Origin: a virus
DNA length: 22,109 nt
Virus record (IMG/VR): IMGVR_UViG_3300042691_021397
Coordinates: 1-22,109 of that record
Direction: 5' to 3' (one strand)
Below, piece by piece: positions 9,155-22,109 of the stretch (positions within the stretch are counted from its first letter, which is position 1; each line of letters begins with the position of its first letter). Below the pieces are notes generated by a model. The model did no database searches, was not told the origin of the DNA, and saw only the letters and a list, made by a program, of their open reading frames with translations. Both the position numbers and the translations under genes were made by a program.

Positions 9155-9661
9155 ATGGCTAAAATCGATTTAAATAATTTGGCAAGACCAAAACAAATCA
9201 ATTCAATTGATACTAAAATAAACGAAGAAGTTATTGATAAAAGCTATATATACAGAGATTTACATTTAGATTTACAACAATCTAAAAGTATAGGATTAGG
9301 ATTTAAACCTGTAATATCTACAGATATTTTAGCTGATGATGATATTTTAGCTATTAAAAATTCATTAAGAAATATTTTTACAACAAAAAAAGGAGAAAAA
9401 TTATTAAATCCTAATTTTGGGTCTTCTTTCGAACAATATTTATTTGAACCTGTGAACGAAACTATAGCAAATATAATGGGAAGAGATATATTAGAAACTA
9501 TTCAAAACTTAGAAGATAGAGTAATAATAGATAATATAAATATAGACGCTTATCCAGATGAAAATTTATATAAGATACAAATAATTTATTCTTTTATAGA
9601 TATTAAAAAACAAAATTTATTAAATATAATAGCATTAAAAGGAGGAGAAATCTTAATCTAA
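9155..9661 (+). CDS. 25: Baseplate wedge protein gp25
   Basis: This 168-residue protein of the gp25/TssE family forms part of the baseplate wedge core that nucleates sheath assembly. The diagnostic stretch is LRNIFTTKKGEKLLNPNFGS followed by SFEQYLFEPVNE (about 71-102), corresponding to the family pattern G-x-x-x-x-N-P-x-F-G then L-F-E-P. The C-terminal strands (VIIDNINID, YKIQIIYSF) are also typical. T4 gp25 has 132 residues; the extra length is a polar N-terminal extension of about 40 residues. It starts the baseplate run and is followed by gp6 after 13 bases, as a probable operon. It has no Shine-Dalgarno sequence. Confidence 0.88.
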   Translation: MAKIDLNNLARPKQINSIDTKINEEVIDKSYIYRDLHLDLQQSKSIGLGFKPVISTDILADDDILAIKNSLRNIFTTKKGEKLLNPNFGSSFEQYLFEPVNETIANIMGRDILETIQNLEDRVIIDNINIDAYPDENLYKIQIIYSFIDIKKQNLLNIIALKGGEILI

Positions 9662-9674
9662 GATAATTATTAAA

Positions 9675-11474
9675 ATGGAAGATAATTTTTTAAATAAAAA
9701 CTCATACCTGTCATTTGACGCAACAAGTTTAAGAGATTTATTGGTTGATAGATTAAATAGAGGTAAAGTATTCACAGATCAAAACTACCAAGGATCAAAT
9801 TTATCATCATTATTAGATGTTGTTGGGTTTACTTTCAGCACGTTGATGTACTACTTAAATAAAACAGCATCAGAAAGTATGTTTTCGGAATCACAAATAT
9901 ATGAAAACATGAACAGGATAGTAAAAATTTTAAATTATAATCCTGTGGGTAGATTGGGGCAAACGGTTCCGTATAAAGTAACGGCCACAAGCATCATAAA
10001 ATCTGGAAATTATACAATACCAAGATATAGTTATGTTAATGTAGGTGGAGTTTTCTATTCAATAAATCAAGATACAACTTTTACGAAATCAACAGATGAT
10101 GACGAGACAATAGATGCGATAGCAAATACATATTTAGCATATCAAGGACTGTATGATGAATATCCACTATATACTGCATCGGGAATTGATAATGAAATTA
10201 TATTTATGTCATTAGAAGAGGATATATACGTAGATCATTTTAATATTGATGTATATGTTAAAAGATTTGGAACCAATAAATGGATTAAATGGACCAGATG
10301 TTCAGAGCTTTTTTTATATTCATCTGATGATACAGTATACGAAGTAAGATTTAATCAAAATAAAAAATACGAAATTAAATTTGGAGATGATATAAATGGT
10401 AAAAAATTAGATCAAAACGATGAAGTATCAATTTTTTATTTAAGAGTTAGCGATAAAGTTTCTGGTATTGGACCAAATGTATTAGGAGATTCTTCTTTGA
10501 TTTCTTATAACTCAATTAGATACGTTAATATATTAACTGATACATCAACTACATATGAAAATTTTTTAACTCCTTATCAATTAAATTATATTAAATTAAA
10601 TAATGATTACCCATCAACAGTTTTTACTCCAGAAGAAACAGTGGACTCTATTAGAAATAACGCTCCAAAAACATTTAGAAGTCAATATAGACTAATAACA
10701 TCAAATGATTATGAATCATTTTTAAAATCTAATTATAGTTTATTTTTATCAGACTTAAAAGTAGTAAACAATGAAAACTATACGGCAAATTATATAAAAT
10801 ATTTGTATGACTTAGGTTTAAGCGAACCACAAAAAGATAATAGAATATTATTCAATCAAATAAAATTTGCAAGTAGTTGTAATTTTAATAATATATACAT
10901 ATATATGGTTCCGAAAAACGAACTACAGCAATATATAACTCCACCACAAAAAGAAATTATATTAAATGGATTACAAGAAACAAAAACATTAACTTCAAAA
11001 ATAGTTCCTATGGATCCTGTCTATATATACGTAGATTTTTATATTGAAAAAGTAGATGAATATCCAATTATAGATAATATAAATTTATCAAAATTATTAA
11101 TAACAAAAAGTTCTAACAGTAGAAGATCTGATTCTTCTATTAAATCCGACATAGATAAAATTTTTAAAAAATATTTTAGTAGAGAAGTAAACAAATTAGG
11201 TCAATTAATAGATATATTTCAAATATCAACAGACTTACTTAATATTGATAGCGTCGAAAGAGTACAAACGTATAGATCAGATATTGACACTTATCTAGAA
11301 GGAATTTCTTTTATATTTTGGAACTCCACATATCCAGAAGCAGATGCAAAAGTTTTTTCGCAAAATATACAATTAGAAAATTTCAAATATCCAATCTTTA
11401 ATAATATACAAAATTTATTTTCAAGAATAGAAATAGTAGAAAAGAATATGTTTATTAAAGCTGCTGATTTTTAA
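9675..11474 (+). CDS. 6: Baseplate wedge protein gp6
   Basis: At 599 residues (T4 gp6 is 660) it belongs to the gp6/baseplate-J family, whose dimers form the inner ring of the baseplate with gp25 and gp53. The N-terminal helical region FTDQNYQGSNLSSLLDVV, YYLNKTASESMF and NMNRIVKILNYNPVG (about 33-92) is characteristic of this family. A beta-rich middle includes KYEIKFGDDINGKKL. The baseplate-J-type motif APKTFRSQYRLITSNDYESF lies near 330-350. The C-terminal region contains an RRSDSSIKSDI segment and helix. Its position directly after gp25 and six bases ahead of the gp7-position gene supports the call. The frame is intact. Confidence 0.88.
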   Translation: MEDNFLNKNSYLSFDATSLRDLLVDRLNRGKVFTDQNYQGSNLSSLLDVVGFTFSTLMYYLNKTASESMFSESQIYENMNRIVKILNYNPVGRLGQTVPYKVTATSIIKSGNYTIPRYSYVNVGGVFYSINQDTTFTKSTDDDETIDAIANTYLAYQGLYDEYPLYTASGIDNEIIFMSLEEDIYVDHFNIDVYVKRFGTNKWIKWTRCSELFLYSSDDTVYEVRFNQNKKYEIKFGDDINGKKLDQNDEVSIFYLRVSDKVSGIGPNVLGDSSLISYNSIRYVNILTDTSTTYENFLTPYQLNYIKLNNDYPSTVFTPEETVDSIRNNAPKTFRSQYRLITSNDYESFLKSNYSLFLSDLKVVNNENYTANYIKYLYDLGLSEPQKDNRILFNQIKFASSCNFNNIYIYMVPKNELQQYITPPQKEIILNGLQETKTLTSKIVPMDPVYIYVDFYIEKVDEYPIIDNINLSKLLITKSSNSRRSDSSIKSDIDKIFKKYFSREVNKLGQLIDIFQISTDLLNIDSVERVQTYRSDIDTYLEGISFIFWNSTYPEADAKVFSQNIQLENFKYPIFNNIQNLFSRIEIVEKNMFIKAADF

Positions 11475-14855: not shown

Positions 14856-17800
14856 ATGGCTACTATTATACCAACTGCTTCTGATGGATTTTCAATCGTT
14901 AAACGATCAGGAACATTTTGGCCGAATGAAGTTTATGATATAACTCCAACTTACATAAATAAAAATGCTACAGGTTTGCCAAGAGGAGGACTTAGTTATA
15001 GAGCGGAAAATATAATTAGATACTTAAATAACCCAAATACAGATAATAATAAAATATTAGACGAATATAAATTTGTAGATTATAGATATGGAAATTTAAA
15101 ATATTTTATATATGATCCTATTTTCAGTAACATAACGTCACTTACTAGTTCTACATCTTATTATGTATTAAGTTCATACTCAAAAACACCATCTACATTA
15201 TCATATATACCATCAAGTTTAAGATTAATAGATAGTGGAGAATTTTTTAATTTTTTATCTCTTGAATATAAGAGGTTAACTATTAATGATAGCGTAACCT
15301 CTTTCTCATATTTACTAATACCGGAAAGTTTATTTAATTATCCTATAGATGTATATCCTAATGGAAATAATTATATTTTAACAACTAAAACTCTATTATT
15401 AAGTTCTAATTTTGTAAGGTTTTTCGGAACTTATAATGAAAATAATGCTTATAAAGAATTAAATAATTATTTATATACTAAGCCCTTAACATCTAATATA
15501 CCTTCAAATCCCGGATCTAATATATATACTTCTATTTCCGCATATAAAAGCGTTAAAGATAAAAAATTAGTAGATTTAAATTTAAATGCTTCAAACAGTT
15601 TTATTTTTTTAGAAGATTATATAGAAAATAGTAATAAAAATTTTATAATAAGACCCGAATCTACTTTTTTAACTTATAGAAGTTTATATAATTCTGGAGA
15701 AATAATAGGTCAAGATATACCCGAATTATATCACGATCTTGCTATAGATTTTAAAGGGTCTTTAATTTTAAGACAAAATTTAAATAATAAATTTTATCAA
15801 ACATTTCAATTAGCACAAAGTTCTATTAGTAAAGGTTTAAATTTAGATGAGCTTTCTAATTCGGTAGAATCTCTAGTAATAGATCTAACTAGTAGTAGTA
15901 TTAATCATAATTTAGTATCATATGATACTGATGATTTTGGAAGCGAATTATTTATAGTTAATCCAACTGATCCACTTGGAATTTCATATAAAATAGATTC
16001 TAATTATTTCTTAGGGAACCCTTCAACGGATTTATATTCTGGTATTTCTACTGTTCCGTCGGGAGATTTATTAATTCATACTTTAAACTATCCTCCACAC
16101 TATTATACTATAAAATCTTCATACATAAGTAATAATTTCCCTAACTATGGAGCATCAACAAATTTAAATTTTAATTTATCAAGCGGAATATCTAAATATT
16201 ATTATTCTGGTGGGGATTCATTTTCGGCAGTAGAAATAAGCTCATTTTTATATTCTAATTTTAATATTTTAAAATTAGATTTTCCAACTTATTGTACACA
16301 AGATAATATTATTTTTTATTCTTATTTAGTAACAAATACAGTTGGAGAAACAACAGATAGTGCATATCTAAGTGCTTTGGAATGTTTTTATGGAGAAAAT
16401 TTAAACGTATATTACGATTTAAATAATCCAATATATATACCAGCAGTATCAGCATCAAAAATTTTAATTAAATATCCAAAAGAAATATACGGAGAGTTTA
16501 ATTTATTTTTATTTTCATCTTTAAGCTGTTCAAATTTAACTGAAATAGATAATGAAAATATTTTACGTATAAATTTTTCAAAAGGAAAACCAGTTGTACT
16601 ATACGAATATCCTATTTATATAGAAAAGCTAAGAGAAATAGAAAATAGGATGGATTTAAGTTGTGCTAAATTAAGTGCAGATAATTTATTTTCAACTAAA
16701 GATTTAACAGATACTTTTATATCATGGTCATATTATCCACAATCAGATAATATAAAAATGATAGGTATAGACAGAAGTACATTTAGTCAATATCAAAGCT
16801 CAGATTACTCAAACTATACAATAAATAACGGAGAATCTATATTATTTTCAGATAATACATCCACTATTTGTATATCAGGCTACGGAATAGATAATATAAC
16901 AGTTGTATTATCATCTCAAAAGTATAACGAAACCGCAACTATTAAAAATGTATTATATGATCAATTATACTTAAATGATAAAGAACTTAAAATTAATTCT
17001 TCTGATATAACAAGAATCAACGATGTTGTAAACTTATCTTTAAGCGCGAGTAGATACTACTATGGAACAATATTGCCGATACCTAGTTCTGCTGATTTAT
17101 ATTGGAATTTCGAGTATTATAATAAAAATCTAGTTGAAATGTATTATAATGATGGAATCACAGTTTATAACGAAAATGATTTATTAGATGCTTATATATT
17201 AAGCTCTATCAAGGTTAAAATAAAACCAGATTATAATGATTTGTTATCACATATAAAACCATTTAAAATTAATTTAAATCTATTGGTTGGAAATTATAAA
17301 ACATTAACTACTAGTTATTCCACCAATATATTTTTATTACCCACTGATGACATTATAAATGTGGATTTTGAAGTAAACGCAAATGGGATCACAACATTAG
17401 AGAATAAAACATATAAAACTAGAAATAGAACAAATTTAATAACAAGACCTAATAATGATTTAAATTCTTTTACATTTAAAGGAAATACTGATATAATACC
17501 GTCATTAAGTTATGATAGTTTAACTTGGATAGTATCAACAAATGTAAATTATTCATACACCACAGCTTATAATATAAATGAAGATTTAATTGTTAATTTT
17601 TATAATATATATCAACAATATTCAAATATTACTCAAGCAACAGTTACATTATCTGCATATAAAGCAAAACTTTCCGGATGGTCAATATCTAGAAACTTAA
17701 GTTCGGTTTTCACTTTAAATTTATTACCTAAAACATTTTTAGATGAAAAATTAGAATTTAAAATTTATTCCCCATATACTTGGTTATCGGCATCTAGTGG

Positions 17801-20678
17801 ATTTATAACACTATTAAACGAGTCAAATTATAGTAATTTATCATTTTCTCCTACTGCATACGCAAATAAAAAATCATTATCTCAAAATTTTTATGTTTCT
17901 TCAAATAGAAATTACGATACATATGAGTATTATTCTGGATCAAATTTATTATACGTAAATACATTAACTTCAGCAAAAGGAGAAATAGAAATACCATATA
18001 CTAATGAGATATATTCCGATGTAGGCTCTGTGATTTATTTATCTGCTTTTAAAAGTGATTTATTTCCAAAGCATGATGGTATATCATATACTGGAGTGAC
18101 AACGAATAATACGGAGTATACTGGTTATTTTCCAGTATTTTCTAATACTTTACCATTTAGTTCAACATACGTTAAAACTGCATCTGCATTTTTACAATCT
18201 CCAAAAATATTAGAGTATAGTCCCAATAATATTAGTTTTTTTGTTAATAGTACATCAATTGATTTAGATAAAAATATATTTTTAACAGTAACCCAAAATA
18301 TAACCGGATTAAATATTTACAATCCAGCTAAAATATCAAATGATAATTTTACACAATCTATAACATATATTTTATCTTGTAAATATTGGCAAACTGAGGT
18401 ATCCATACCAGCAGTAGACGGAACTTATGATTTATTCATATTAAGAATAGGTGATCCATCAGAAGTTTTAAATATAAAAGATTTAGAGATAACAACACTA
18501 AGTTTACAGGCATCTAGTGACATAGAATTAAAAATACCAAAAACAACATTTCAATATGTATCATCTAATTTTAATGGGGATATAGACTTGTGGAATGAAA
18601 AACAAGTACCTATATTAACAAATCCAGTAACGATTTTCGCGTATAGCACAAGTGTAAAACCTAATATTTTTATATCCTCTTATTATACAATAACCGGAGA
18701 AGAAATTTATTTCGAATTTGAAACTCCAGAAAATACTTTAAATTACAAAATATCATCTTACGATTTATTTTTTGGAGATGGGTTATCAGCTAAAGTTTTT
18801 AATGATTCAAAAATATATAAAACTTATTATAACAATGATTATTATTATATTTCATTTGTAGCAAATTATACGAATCAAACTTCTACATATTTTGAAATGT
18901 CTGATCCGATAATCGTATTTAATGAATGGCCTTATTACGATCAAAGTGAAATAAGATTACTTTCAGAAAACCAATTATATTTTGGAAATGTAAACGAAAA
19001 CACATACACCTTAGACCAAATAGAAATACAACCAAATGAATGGGGAGATGTTGATATATTTAATACTGGAATAAATAGATTATATTCTAATTTGCAATAT
19101 TTAAGAGATAATTGCAAAACATTAATTTCTAATTCTCCGGAAGTTTATTACGGTTGGTTAGGTACAAATGAAGATAAAAAATCAGAAGGAATAAGCTGGC
19201 ATACTAAAGACTATAAGAAGTTTTATCTTAATCACCCAAATAAAGCTACATCATCAGGCAGTAATTATTTTTCAAATTTAAAAGATGCTGTCGAAAATAA
19301 AGATAGAATTTTTGTTATAGACGAAACTACAATAAGAGCATTTTCATCATCTAAAATACCACAAGAAATTGTTTTTGAAAATAAACAAGAAATAGACAAT
19401 CTACTAGTAAATCCAATATCTATAGATATTGATGAATCGGGAGAAAATGTTTATGTAGCAGATAATTTTAAAAATAAAATATATAAATTAAATTTAGATT
19501 TTGATTTTTACCCCCCACAAGTAAACGTCCAATTAAATGTTGGAAATTTTGGAAAAAGAGAAGAACCATTTAAATTAAATTCTCCTACAGAAATAATATA
19601 CAAAAAAGAAGTTTTATTCGTATTGGATTATAACAATAAATGTATTAAACAATACACAAAAGATTTAAATTGGATGTTTACGTATCACACTGATGATTTT
19701 GAAATATATCAACCAATATCAATCGCAATTCATCCTGAAAATTTGTTTGTATATGTTTTAACTGAAAATTATAATATTTATATTTTTGACTATTTTAATT
19801 CTGATATTTTTGAAATAATAGACATTTCAGATATAGACAAAAATTATACACCTTTAAAATTATTTTTCGATGAAGGTGGAGATTTTATTTATATATTAAC
19901 AGAGAAAGAAATATATAAATATTCAACTTCTGGATTATATATAACAAACACCGCAATACCAAATTTAGAAAATTTAAGTTTAGTAACTGGAAAATCTTCA
20001 TTTTATAGATCTATTTTAGCATTAACGACAAATAGTATAATAAAATTTAGTGATATAATATTTTATCAAGAAATAGGAGAGGGGTTACCGTATAGTTATT
20101 GGAATGAAGAACATATTAAATTGAATAGAGATGATCTAGCTTTAGATTTAAATTACAACACAAGTCTAATAAGATTATGTCAAAATATTAAACAATTTAG
20201 AGATAATTTGAATTCTAGATTTGTCTTAGTTTCCGAAAAACAAAATTTTGGAGTTATAGAATATTATTCCATATATCCAATTTCAAATAAAAATAAACTT
20301 ATCTTTTCCGATGACATAGAAAATGAAAATATCGGAGTAGGAGTAAATGAGTTTCACATACCACAAGTATTAAATAGAGAATTTAAAAAAATATACACCG
20401 CCTTAGAACAATTAAGGGAATATTTAGAAATAATTGACGTTAGATTGATAGACGGAAATGATGGATTATCAGACTTATGCACTGGAACTTTTTGTTGGTC
20501 GTGGAAAGCAATGTCAAGTTATGATTTAAATTTTCCAGTTTTAAAAGTTTGTAATATTAATCCAATTACATATTCAGAATTAAGTTCGGATTTTTCATCA
20601 GAATATTCTTATGCACCATCTAAAACTTTTGGAGACGCAACATCAGATTGTTGTGATAGTTTAAAACCACCAATATAA
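14856..20678 (+). CDS. Giant structural (baseplate/tail) protein with beta-propeller, 1940 aa
   Basis: At 5.8 kb this is the largest gene in the window and its frame is unbroken. I do not recognise it as a whole. Residues 1 to about 1260 are Ser/Tyr/Asn-rich and beta-patterned, as in stacked Ig-like or fibre domains. About 1268-1352 is a degenerate PKD-like domain (YDLFFGDGLSA then Tyr-rich strands). About 1469-1740 holds NHL-type propeller blades (DESGENVYVADNFKNKIYKL, KEVLFVLDYNNKCIKQY, ENLFVYVLTENYNIYIF, GGDFIYILTEKEIYKY). Three related helical motifs flank the propeller (about 1400, 1770 and 1845), of the type N-x-x-x-x-R-L-x-x-N-(I/L)-x-x-(L/F)-R-(D/E). The C-terminus (1875-1940) has six Cys, ending SDCCDSLKPPI. 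Its place after the gp7-position gene suggests an outer baseplate or fibre-network part (the gp8-gp10 role in T4); this is inference. Confidence 0.55.
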   Translation: MATIIPTASDGFSIVKRSGTFWPNEVYDITPTYINKNATGLPRGGLSYRAENIIRYLNNPNTDNNKILDEYKFVDYRYGNLKYFIYDPIFSNITSLTSSTSYYVLSSYSKTPSTLSYIPSSLRLIDSGEFFNFLSLEYKRLTINDSVTSFSYLLIPESLFNYPIDVYPNGNNYILTTKTLLLSSNFVRFFGTYNENNAYKELNNYLYTKPLTSNIPSNPGSNIYTSISAYKSVKDKKLVDLNLNASNSFIFLEDYIENSNKNFIIRPESTFLTYRSLYNSGEIIGQDIPELYHDLAIDFKGSLILRQNLNNKFYQTFQLAQSSISKGLNLDELSNSVESLVIDLTSSSINHNLVSYDTDDFGSELFIVNPTDPLGISYKIDSNYFLGNPSTDLYSGISTVPSGDLLIHTLNYPPHYYTIKSSYISNNFPNYGASTNLNFNLSSGISKYYYSGGDSFSAVEISSFLYSNFNILKLDFPTYCTQDNIIFYSYLVTNTVGETTDSAYLSALECFYGENLNVYYDLNNPIYIPAVSASKILIKYPKEIYGEFNLFLFSSLSCSNLTEIDNENILRINFSKGKPVVLYEYPIYIEKLREIENRMDLSCAKLSADNLFSTKDLTDTFISWSYYPQSDNIKMIGIDRSTFSQYQSSDYSNYTINNGESILFSDNTSTICISGYGIDNITVVLSSQKYNETATIKNVLYDQLYLNDKELKINSSDITRINDVVNLSLSASRYYYGTILPIPSSADLYWNFEYYNKNLVEMYYNDGITVYNENDLLDAYILSSIKVKIKPDYNDLLSHIKPFKINLNLLVGNYKTLTTSYSTNIFLLPTDDIINVDFEVNANGITTLENKTYKTRNRTNLITRPNNDLNSFTFKGNTDIIPSLSYDSLTWIVSTNVNYSYTTAYNINEDLIVNFYNIYQQYSNITQATVTLSAYKAKLSGWSISRNLSSVFTLNLLPKTFLDEKLEFKIYSPYTWLSASSGFITLLNESNYSNLSFSPTAYANKKSLSQNFYVSSNRNYDTYEYYSGSNLLYVNTLTSAKGEIEIPYTNEIYSDVGSVIYLSAFKSDLFPKHDGISYTGVTTNNTEYTGYFPVFSNTLPFSSTYVKTASAFLQSPKILEYSPNNISFFVNSTSIDLDKNIFLTVTQNITGLNIYNPAKISNDNFTQSITYILSCKYWQTEVSIPAVDGTYDLFILRIGDPSEVLNIKDLEITTLSLQASSDIELKIPKTTFQYVSSNFNGDIDLWNEKQVPILTNPVTIFAYSTSVKPNIFISSYYTITGEEIYFEFETPENTLNYKISSYDLFFGDGLSAKVFNDSKIYKTYYNNDYYYISFVANYTNQTSTYFEMSDPIIVFNEWPYYDQSEIRLLSENQLYFGNVNENTYTLDQIEIQPNEWGDVDIFNTGINRLYSNLQYLRDNCKTLISNSPEVYYGWLGTNEDKKSEGISWHTKDYKKFYLNHPNKATSSGSNYFSNLKDAVENKDRIFVIDETTIRAFSSSKIPQEIVFENKQEIDNLLVNPISIDIDESGENVYVADNFKNKIYKLNLDFDFYPPQVNVQLNVGNFGKREEPFKLNSPTEIIYKKEVLFVLDYNNKCIKQYTKDLNWMFTYHTDDFEIYQPISIAIHPENLFVYVLTENYNIYIFDYFNSDIFEIIDISDIDKNYTPLKLFFDEGGDFIYILTEKEIYKYSTSGLYITNTAIPNLENLSLVTGKSSFYRSILALTTNSIIKFSDIIFYQEIGEGLPYSYWNEEHIKLNRDDLALDLNYNTSLIRLCQNIKQFRDNLNSRFVLVSEKQNFGVIEYYSIYPISNKNKLIFSDDIENENIGVGVNEFHIPQVLNREFKKIYTALEQLREYLEIIDVRLIDGNDGLSDLCTGTFCWSWKAMSSYDLNFPVLKVCNINPITYSELSSDFSSEYSYAPSKTFGDATSDCCDSLKPPI

Positions 20679-20692: not shown

Positions 20693-21121
20693 ATGAATAG
20701 ATTTCACTCAAAATATCACAGATCAAATCACCACACTTCAACTAATAGTACAAATCCAGATGCTGGACATGATCCAATAGCAAGCAATGAATATCCATTT
20801 CAAGGTGATTTTGTAGTTAATGGAAATATAAAAAATCTAGTTTATGAATATTCTACTTTTTCTAGTCCAACATTAGCTATTCAATCAACAAATCAAATAA
20901 ACATAAGAACAGCTGCGAACACAACTATTACCAGTATAATCGGTGGGGTTACTGGAGTAACATATAGCTTAACAAATACTTCAAATACATATACCGCAAT
21001 AATTCAAAATAATGCAAGTGTTTTCGTTAGAGGTGGAGTAAATTTAAGTTTGGGACCATATCAATCATGTAATATAAAAATAGCTACGTCATTACCATCA
21101 AATATATATTCTGTTTGGTAA
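20693..21121 (+). CDS. Small His-rich probable baseplate or fibre-associated protein (142 aa)
   Basis: I do not recognise a named family. Residues 1-40 are polar and His-rich (FHSKYHRSNHHTSTNS), leading into DPIASNEYPFQGDFVVNGNI, which looks like a short adaptor segment, then a beta domain (about 45-142) of Thr/Asn/Ile-rich strands ending SLPSNIYSVW. The small beta-rich build, and its position between the giant baseplate gene and a fibre gene, suggest a fibre-attachment or short spike component. This is inference from context only. The stop overlaps the promoter-like GGTAAATA of the next fibre gene. No signal peptide or membrane segment is present. Confidence 0.5.
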   Translation: MNRFHSKYHRSNHHTSTNSTNPDAGHDPIASNEYPFQGDFVVNGNIKNLVYEYSTFSSPTLAIQSTNQINIRTAANTTITSIIGGVTGVTYSLTNTSNTYTAIIQNNASVFVRGGVNLSLGPYQSCNIKIATSLPSNIYSVW

Positions 21122-21132: not shown

Positions 21133-22109
21133 ATGCCGATCATCACAAGCGTAAACAGTAAAAAAATAGCAGACCTACCAAATACATTAGAATTATTTGG
21201 TCCTGAAATATTTCCAATATCACAAGACAATATAACAAAGTTTACAACTTTTGATGTACTTGGAAAATATTTTTCTACTTTAGATCCTGTTACTTTTGTA
21301 AATCTTAATACTGCTAGATTTTTATTTACTAATAATATAGTTGCTTTGGGATATAATGGATTAAGACTTTCAAGTGGTGCAACAAATATATCTGTTGGTT
21401 TTGATTCTTTATCATCAAATACTACCGGAAGTGATAATACTGCTATAGGTTATAGAGTTTTATATCTAAATAAAACTGGAAGTAATAATATAGGAATAGG
21501 AGACTCCACTTTAAATAAAAATCTTTCTGGAGATAATAATACAGGTTTTGGTTATTTAGCACTGACTGAAAACATAGGAGGTACTAACAACTTTGCTGCT
21601 GGATATAGAGCATTATATCTTAATACTTATGGAGCTAATAATACAGCTATAGGATATGGCTCTCTAGATCAAAATAAAACTGGAACTGATAATACAGCTA
21701 TAGGAGCGAATACTCTACAAAACAATACTACTGGAAACGATAATACTGCTATAGGTTCATTTGCATTACAAACAAACCAAACTGGAAGTAACAATATAGC
21801 AATAGGAGATTCTACATTAAATAAAAACACAGCAAGTAATAATATAGCTCTTGGAAATGGAACACTTCGTACTAATACAGTTGGAACTGACAATTTTGGT
21901 GCTGGATATCTAGCATTGTATTATAACCTTTCTGGTAATAATAACTCTGCTTTTGGTAATGGATCATTAAATAGAAATATAGGAGGAAGCAATAATTTTG
22001 CATCTGGATTTTCTACTTTATTTACAAATACGTATGGAACTAATAATACCGCTATAGGTTATGGTGCATTAAATCAAAACACACTAGGAAACGATAATAC
22101 TGCTATAGG
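21133..22109 (+). CDS. Second tail fibre protein, paralogue of the first (3' truncated)
   Basis: The frame starts at ATG 21133, 11 bases after the preceding stop, and stays open to the right edge (325 codons seen). The N-terminal 84 residues are not repetitive; IFPISQDNITKFTTFDVLGK (about 26-45) resembles the short N-terminal motif common in phage fibre proteins (P-I-x-Q-x-x-x-T-K-x-x-T). From 21385 on there are 14 complete 17-residue units of the same N-x-A-I-G type as in the first fibre, plus part of another. Several units are near-copies of units in the first fibre (for example IAIGDSTL, NIGG followed by NFA, NTYG). An S74 chaperone end is expected beyond the window by analogy. There is no Shine-Dalgarno sequence before the ATG. 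Confidence 0.88.
   Translation, partial: MPIITSVNSKKIADLPNTLELFGPEIFPISQDNITKFTTFDVLGKYFSTLDPVTFVNLNTARFLFTNNIVALGYNGLRLSSGATNISVGFDSLSSNTTGSDNTAIGYRVLYLNKTGSNNIGIGDSTLNKNLSGDNNTGFGYLALTENIGGTNNFAAGYRALYLNTYGANNTAIGYGSLDQNKTGTDNTAIGANTLQNNTTGNDNTAIGSFALQTNQTGSNNIAIGDSTLNKNTASNNIALGNGTLRTNTVGTDNFGAGYLALYYNLSGNNNSAFGNGSLNRNIGGSNNFASGFSTLFTNTYGTNNTAIGYGALNQNTLGNDNTAI
21385..22109 (+). repeat. Tandem 51-base (17-residue) units in the second fibre gene
   Basis: Fourteen full units and a partial one; one unit (NIAIGDSTL to NTASN) has 16 residues. The NIGG-NFA marker begins at 21571 and 21976, eight units (135 residues) apart, compared with seven in the first fibre. Confidence 0.88.

Follow-up and report, generated by a model that had tools for sequence, protein, structure and literature searches.

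Gene content of the baseplate block

The window analyzed here is the stretch of 22,109 bases of the virus record IMGVR_UViG_3300042691_021397 (positions 1 to 22,109). It encodes gp23, gp25, gp6, and a T4-type clamp loader (phrog_168, 6.8e-72), which together place it in the T4 superfamily. Matches to gp23 came from a search of 2488 phage records and matches to gp6 from a tblastn search of 406. In pairwise comparison, gp23 was 29-32% identical to that of RM378 and about 34% identical to those of cyanophages, and the gp6, gp25, p1109, and p1940 profiles found no match in RM378. A block of baseplate genes, all on the same strand, contains two adjacent giant genes, p1109 and p1940, the second of which is the subject of this study:

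9155..9661, +, gp25-like baseplate wedge protein (PF04965, 3.5e-11; phrog_261, 1.4e-28)
9675..11474, +, gp6-like baseplate wedge protein (phrog_219, 4.7e-29; tblastn against 406 phage records)
11481..14810, +, p1109, the first giant, in the gp7 position: PKD, propeller, and C-terminal region (PKD_4, 2.2e-8; PDB profiles)
14856..20678, +, p1940, two-module protein (ORF, homologues, module HMMs)
14856..18590, +, N-module, residues 1-1245, predicted all-beta, mostly tandem Ig/FnIII/cadherin-like sandwiches (AlphaFold2, Foldseek, VIA)
18657..18923, +, PKD-like domain, about residues 1268-1356 (profiles, AlphaFold2)
19005..19115, +, predicted helical unit A, residues 1384-1420, within the stretch of highest conservation (AlphaFold2, profile-profile comparison, conservation)
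19146..20048, +, predicted NHL-type six-bladed propeller, residues 1431-1731 (structure matches to the model, profiles)
20100..20210, +, predicted helical unit B, residues 1749-1785, with a beta hairpin after it (AlphaFold2, profile-profile comparison, conservation)
20316..20426, +, predicted helical unit C, residues 1821-1857 (AlphaFold2, profile-profile comparison, conservation)
20478..20654, +, Cys/Trp-rich C-terminal segment, residues 1875-1933, of low model confidence (conservation, AlphaFold2)
20693..21121, +, p142, small downstream protein of 142 aa (weak phrog tail match, 0.056; no Pfam match)
21133..22107, +, first part of a repetitive tail-fibre-like protein that is truncated at the end of the window (phrog_6002, 6.8e-44; phrog_4636 tail spike, 8.6e-38)

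Tail-fibre-like genes with repeats of the TG-NN-AIG type were found on both sides of the block (3-2102 and 21133-22107). By eye, the end of the first resembles what we take to be an S74-type chaperone tail.

p1940 is a real, conserved gene. Its reading frame (14856-20678, + strand) encodes 1940 aa uninterrupted by a stop codon, and third codon positions were the most divergent in all five pairs of relatives compared, revealing constraint at the protein level. A profile built from three gp6 proteins retrieved 135 relatives from IMG/VR, 80 of which were kept. Many p1940 homologues were found among the ORFs at these loci, normally directly after p1109, the full-length ones being about 30-55% identical. 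A profile of 14 p1940-family proteins retrieved 98 relatives, and the 80 that were kept correspond to 77 loci.

Two modules and their predicted folds

p1940 is composed of an N-module (residues about 1-1250) and a C-module (residues about 1250-1940). The first-pass annotation, made from the sequence alone, described the C-module but overlooked the division into modules, the N-terminal string of beta-sandwiches, and the fact that the gene stands in the place of gp8 and VrlC of related phages. Module HMMs showed that p1940 is a single ORF in some relatives and two ORFs in others, with the cut between the separate genes near residue 1250. Among 95 classified loci, several of which share a contig, 68 were fused, 16 were split and adjacent, and five were split with genes in between; four others were fused but carried an insert of about 250 aa, and two had the C-part only. 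After reduction at 88% identity to 45 members, the corresponding numbers were 26 fused, 12 split and adjacent, three split apart, two fused with an insert, and two with the C-part only. On the C-module tree, the adjacent splits required two changes, both forced by well supported branches, and the modules are thus separate genes in at least two lineages. In the overlapping gene pairs, the TGA stop of the N-module gene was located inside an ATGA in 14 of 14 cases (about 10 distinct; read by eye). The downstream protein therefore probably starts at the ATG of this ATGA, although our ORF rule picked an earlier TTG start in some of these pairs. Such a stop-start overlap would fit with coupled translation. 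The split versions found in nature also offer ready construct boundaries for structural work. Where the module genes are split apart, the genes between them encode one or two proteins of 614-957 aa with no Pfam match (L150 8795-11668, L151 8798-12828, L160 12329-14173).

The two modules differ in length variation, the N-module ranging from 1159 to 1883 aa (n = 100) and the C-module from 655 to 706 aa (n = 94). A single full-length C-module was found in 17 of 18 long contigs. An AlphaFold2 model of N-module residues 1-1200, computed from 40 sequences, was nearly all beta (mean pLDDT 78.9, pTM 0.52). Its Foldseek and VIA matches were tandem beta-sandwich proteins, each of them weak, with a best Z of 7.5 that is within the range also reached by models without a clear match; residues 1-437 were barely probed by this structure search. 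The N-module is predicted to be for the most part a string of Ig/FnIII/cadherin-like beta-sandwiches.

The first-pass annotation had proposed a separate structure prediction of the part from about residue 1250 to 1940. The single-chain AlphaFold2 model of the C-module, obtained from 45 sequences (model residue i is protein residue 1245+i), reached a mean pLDDT of 82.7 and a pTM of 0.76, and contained a PKD-like domain, a propeller, and three helices. The PKD-like domain, at about residues 1268-1356, lies before the propeller, as had been noted. PKD_4 was matched in 4 of 14 family members (Pfam, best 2.8e-5), and by profile the p1940 domain matched the PKD of collagenase in the PDB (E = 1.2e-3); a Pfam search with the window p1940 alone did not match PKD. 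The propeller, previously placed at about residues 1469-1740, was recovered by the model, but starts about 40 residues earlier: residues 1431-1731 aligned with 8j72 at a Z of 26.2 and an rmsd of 2.7 over 254 residues. The Pfam search detected NHL in 11 of the 14 members (best 2.4e-5), with the window member below the cut-off. From the model, the propeller is predicted to be of the six-bladed NHL class.

The three short motifs that had been described as repeated helical motifs flanking or following the propeller are located at residues 1407-1419, 1772-1784, and 1846-1857, and each lies in a predicted helix (1401-1418, 1764-1784, and 1836-1857, respectively). Profile-profile comparison of the motif regions from 45 aligned homologues related A to B (E = 3.3e-5, probability 46%) and A to C (E = 9.2e-5, probability 31%), while B and C were weakly related when compared alone (E = 0.014, probability 1.4%). 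The 15 control comparisons, in which the motif regions were set against four slices of the propeller or against the PKD region, all stayed at or below 0.11%. These comparisons support the repeats of the first-pass annotation, and support A, B, and C as copies of one unit, the relation between B and C being weak. The majority consensus of the units consists of NE or E followed by F/L, with an Asn about six to eight residues further on, and a helix. A profile search for the motif, also proposed previously, thus related the units to one another within p1940, but outside the family no match rose above chance (best 0.049). The Foldseek lists for the C-module were dominated by propellers, and its helical part was barely probed by them.

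The Cys-rich end already recognized in the first-pass annotation is conserved. Cysteines at residues 1596 (propeller) and 1875, 1880, 1899, 1932, and 1933 (tail) were near invariant, each in 41-45 of 45 sequences, and FCWSW and CC in the C-terminal segment were also near invariant. Mean entropy was lowest in the helix A region (1.35 bits), followed by helix C and the Cys tail (1.45 bits each) and the helix B region (1.68 bits), and was higher in the propeller (1.97 bits), the PKD-like domain (2.25 bits), and the N-module (1.99-2.44 bits).

Some relatives carry further sequences. One C-module gene (L138, 13226-14143) has a C-terminal extension of 306 aa with no Pfam match, in which a YELGR stretch resembles, by eye, a degenerate metallopeptidase motif. 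In addition, the records of two other loci, L077 (G002) and L146 (G017), contain large open frames (1563 and 3435 aa) that weakly matched the C-module profile in its propeller part (G002:C1:187729-188013 and G017:C1:22877-23179), hinting that these records may encode more propeller proteins.

Genomic position and comparison with known baseplate proteins

The usual gene order was gp25, gp6, p1109, then p1940. Of the 111 p1109 genes for which 400 nt or more of downstream sequence was available, 92 had an N-module gene starting no further than 400 nt away (loci of one contig may count more than once), and 16 of the 19 exceptions belonged to one group with reverse-strand genes after p1109. In two contigs of this group (L102 and L128; contigs of L020 and L033), the p1940 gene was found upstream of gp6, on the same strand and roughly 20 kb away. 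p1109 is conserved beside gp6 and contains a PKD (2.2e-8) and, by profile, a propeller (Pizza6, E 6.1e-9), in agreement with the description of two adjacent giant proteins with propellers. The profile of its C-terminal region gave chance-level matches only in the PDB, and p1109 had no match among isolated phages. From its position alone, this C-terminal region is a candidate for the gp7-type helices that join the core bundle of gp6.

No described counterpart of p1940 was known to the first-pass annotation. This holds across Pfam, PHROGs, NCBIfam, isolated phages, and, for the literature, a few targeted searches, and none of them yielded a match to a described baseplate family of the same architecture. 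The whole protein belonged to no Pfam or NCBIfam family and no PHROG matched it above chance; a single-sequence search found it in no isolated phage and no viral contig, and the 14-protein profile had no match in GTDB genomes. Literature searches combining NHL repeat, baseplate, and phage, or Far-T4 and baseplate, gave nothing related, and one combining baseplate, beta-propeller, PKD, and phage gave only work on eCIS fibres. The words "baseplate" and "propeller" are absent from the main text of a Far-T4 paper (PMC4360716). On the best reading, the carriers of p1940 form an uncultivated clade of T4-superfamily phages, and p1940 represents an unnamed conserved family of their baseplate block.

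In cyanophages and relatives, this block consists, with variations, of gp25, gp6, a gp7-position protein, gp8, and VrlC, and the p1109/p1940 interval thus takes the place of gp7, gp8, and VrlC. Giants are already known there: in cyanophages the gp7-position protein has about 4450-4750 aa and VrlC 2217-2484 aa. Like p1940, VrlC and gp8 are large or giant and encoded downstream of gp25-gp6, but neither shares profile similarity with p1940 and neither was detected in the long contigs of the p1940 group. DUF4815 (VrlC) was detected in none of the 18 long contigs but in 7 of 7 control records with such blocks, and gp8 in 0 of 18 versus 4 of 4 (two of the four below the curated cut-off); these 18 contigs may be incomplete, but the gp6-p1940 interval itself was seen directly in many loci. 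It is conceivable that p1940 shares a remote ancestry with VrlC, gp8, or gp7 and has drifted beyond recognition, as it occupies the same interval and gp7-position proteins vary widely in size among phages. This is improbable, given that DUF4815 and gp8 were not detected in the 18 long contigs, an hhalign probability of 0.1% to VrlC with no Pfam DUF4815 match, and values of at most 0.7% for the p1940 modules and p1109 against gp7, gp8, and cyanophage/phiM12 gp7. The gp8 family (PF09215) likewise showed no profile similarity, nor did any other of the known baseplate proteins compared. A match between the C-module and gp7 of Erwinia phage Cronus (E 0.037) was dropped, profile-profile comparison giving only 0.7%.

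The closest predicted fold was that of A0A6J7X647, an uncharacterized 539-aa protein of an uncultured Caudovirales phage (BFVD), which resembled the C-module, to which the comparison is restricted, over 536 columns (TM 0.72 by target length, E 1.7e-27) at 19% identity. TRIM71, Pizza6, and PknD share the six-bladed NHL class predicted for p1940 (Z 22-26), but they are not phage baseplate proteins and the likeness can be trusted for the propeller only.

Possible role at the baseplate periphery

We infer that p1940 is located in the virion, where it is probably a peripheral baseplate protein with a docking C-module and an extended arm formed by the N-module. The first-pass annotation had suggested an expanded baseplate; a baseplate context, with p1940 directly downstream of gp25, gp6, and p1109, and an expanded baseplate periphery are both supported. 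The assignment of docking and projecting parts would follow from the conservation peaks of the C-module as opposed to the variation of the N-module in sequence and length. The helical units and the Cys/Trp tail would contact adjacent proteins of the baseplate, the p1109/gp6 wedge being the likeliest partner and a fibre base another possible one, and the docked C-module would keep the propeller in place as a rigid platform. The N-module, mostly Ig-like sandwiches, would be a long arm that reaches outward and diversifies, made as one chain or from two coupled genes depending on the lineage. Since the model is a single chain and holds no inter-chain contacts, the docking face is guessed from conservation. 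However, helices more conserved than an arm are expected of many structural proteins, which counts against this reasoning, as does the lack of profile similarity to any known baseplate protein, and position is a weak guide since in one group the gene is not beside gp6.

Alternatively, the propeller could be a receptor-binding head, p1940 being primarily an adhesin for host surface glycans and the rest a scaffold. NHL propellers bind ligands of many kinds, and the propeller of p1940, at 1.97 bits, varies less than the N-module and the PKD-like domain do, unlike a fast-changing receptor head. Separate repetitive fibre-like genes are also present in the window. On the other hand, lectin-like or Gly-rich domains occur in some relatives: a LamG-like domain is located at the N/C junction of L123 (11715-12458; contigs of 3300042289_000986), Gly_rich_2 extends the C-terminus of the C-module in L135 (12335-13447) and L158 (12500-13654), and LamG_3 and YHYH were each found in one p1109 member. 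Propellers are moreover known in receptor-binding or peripheral tail proteins, namely phi11 gp45, PRD1 P2, and phiKZ gp131C; according to the source, these are five-, six-, and seven-bladed, respectively, and they are set beside p1940 by description only (PMC6115969). Taken together, a primary adhesin role appears unlikely, while glycan binding by p1940 is plausible by analogy, and the LamG-like, Gly-rich, and YHYH additions would fit with a surface-facing layer or surface binding.

A less likely possibility still is a pseudo-trimeric bundle of the three helical units, which on a single chain would copy a homotrimeric fibre base of the T4 gp10 type and adapt trimeric fibres to the wedge. One chain does carry three copies, A being related to B and C, and two of them lie close together past the propeller. 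Nevertheless, the units matched the gp10 N-terminal motif at E values of 0.0037-0.25 in shifted registers, which is the level of the controls and leaves this motif unsupported as their source; the best of 55 control slices reached 0.0075 against the stacked units, whereas the stacked units against gp10 gave 0.13. A combined view, in which a pair of PKD-propeller giants replaced the gp8/VrlC layer and the core of p1940 is a propeller clamped in a triplicated helical unit forming a pseudo-trimeric fibre adaptor, is also unlikely as a whole.

Exchange within this baseplate layer has a precedent, as T4 gp7 was reported to be missing from pelagimyophages and cyanomyophages and VrlC was put forward as its substitute (PMC7029224). 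Gp7-like wedge parts were also reported as an evolutionary hotspot that mediates tail fibre contacts (PMC8894135). The outer layer of the T4-type baseplate may thus be an exchangeable module, with gp8 and VrlC in some lines and propeller and Ig-string proteins elsewhere.

Marine Bacteroidetes were linked to Far-T4-like viruses (PMC7198788), which would bear on the window if it were itself a Far-T4 member. Among the distinct regions upstream of p1109/p1940 genes, 3 of 141 contained a Shine-Dalgarno-like tetramer, whereas in reference phages 12 of 24 structural genes had one, a scarcity that serves as a hint only because the low G+C content (0.275) lowers the chance rate of such tetramers. Bacteroidota make little use of Shine-Dalgarno sites, and a host of this kind would be compatible with the observed scarcity.
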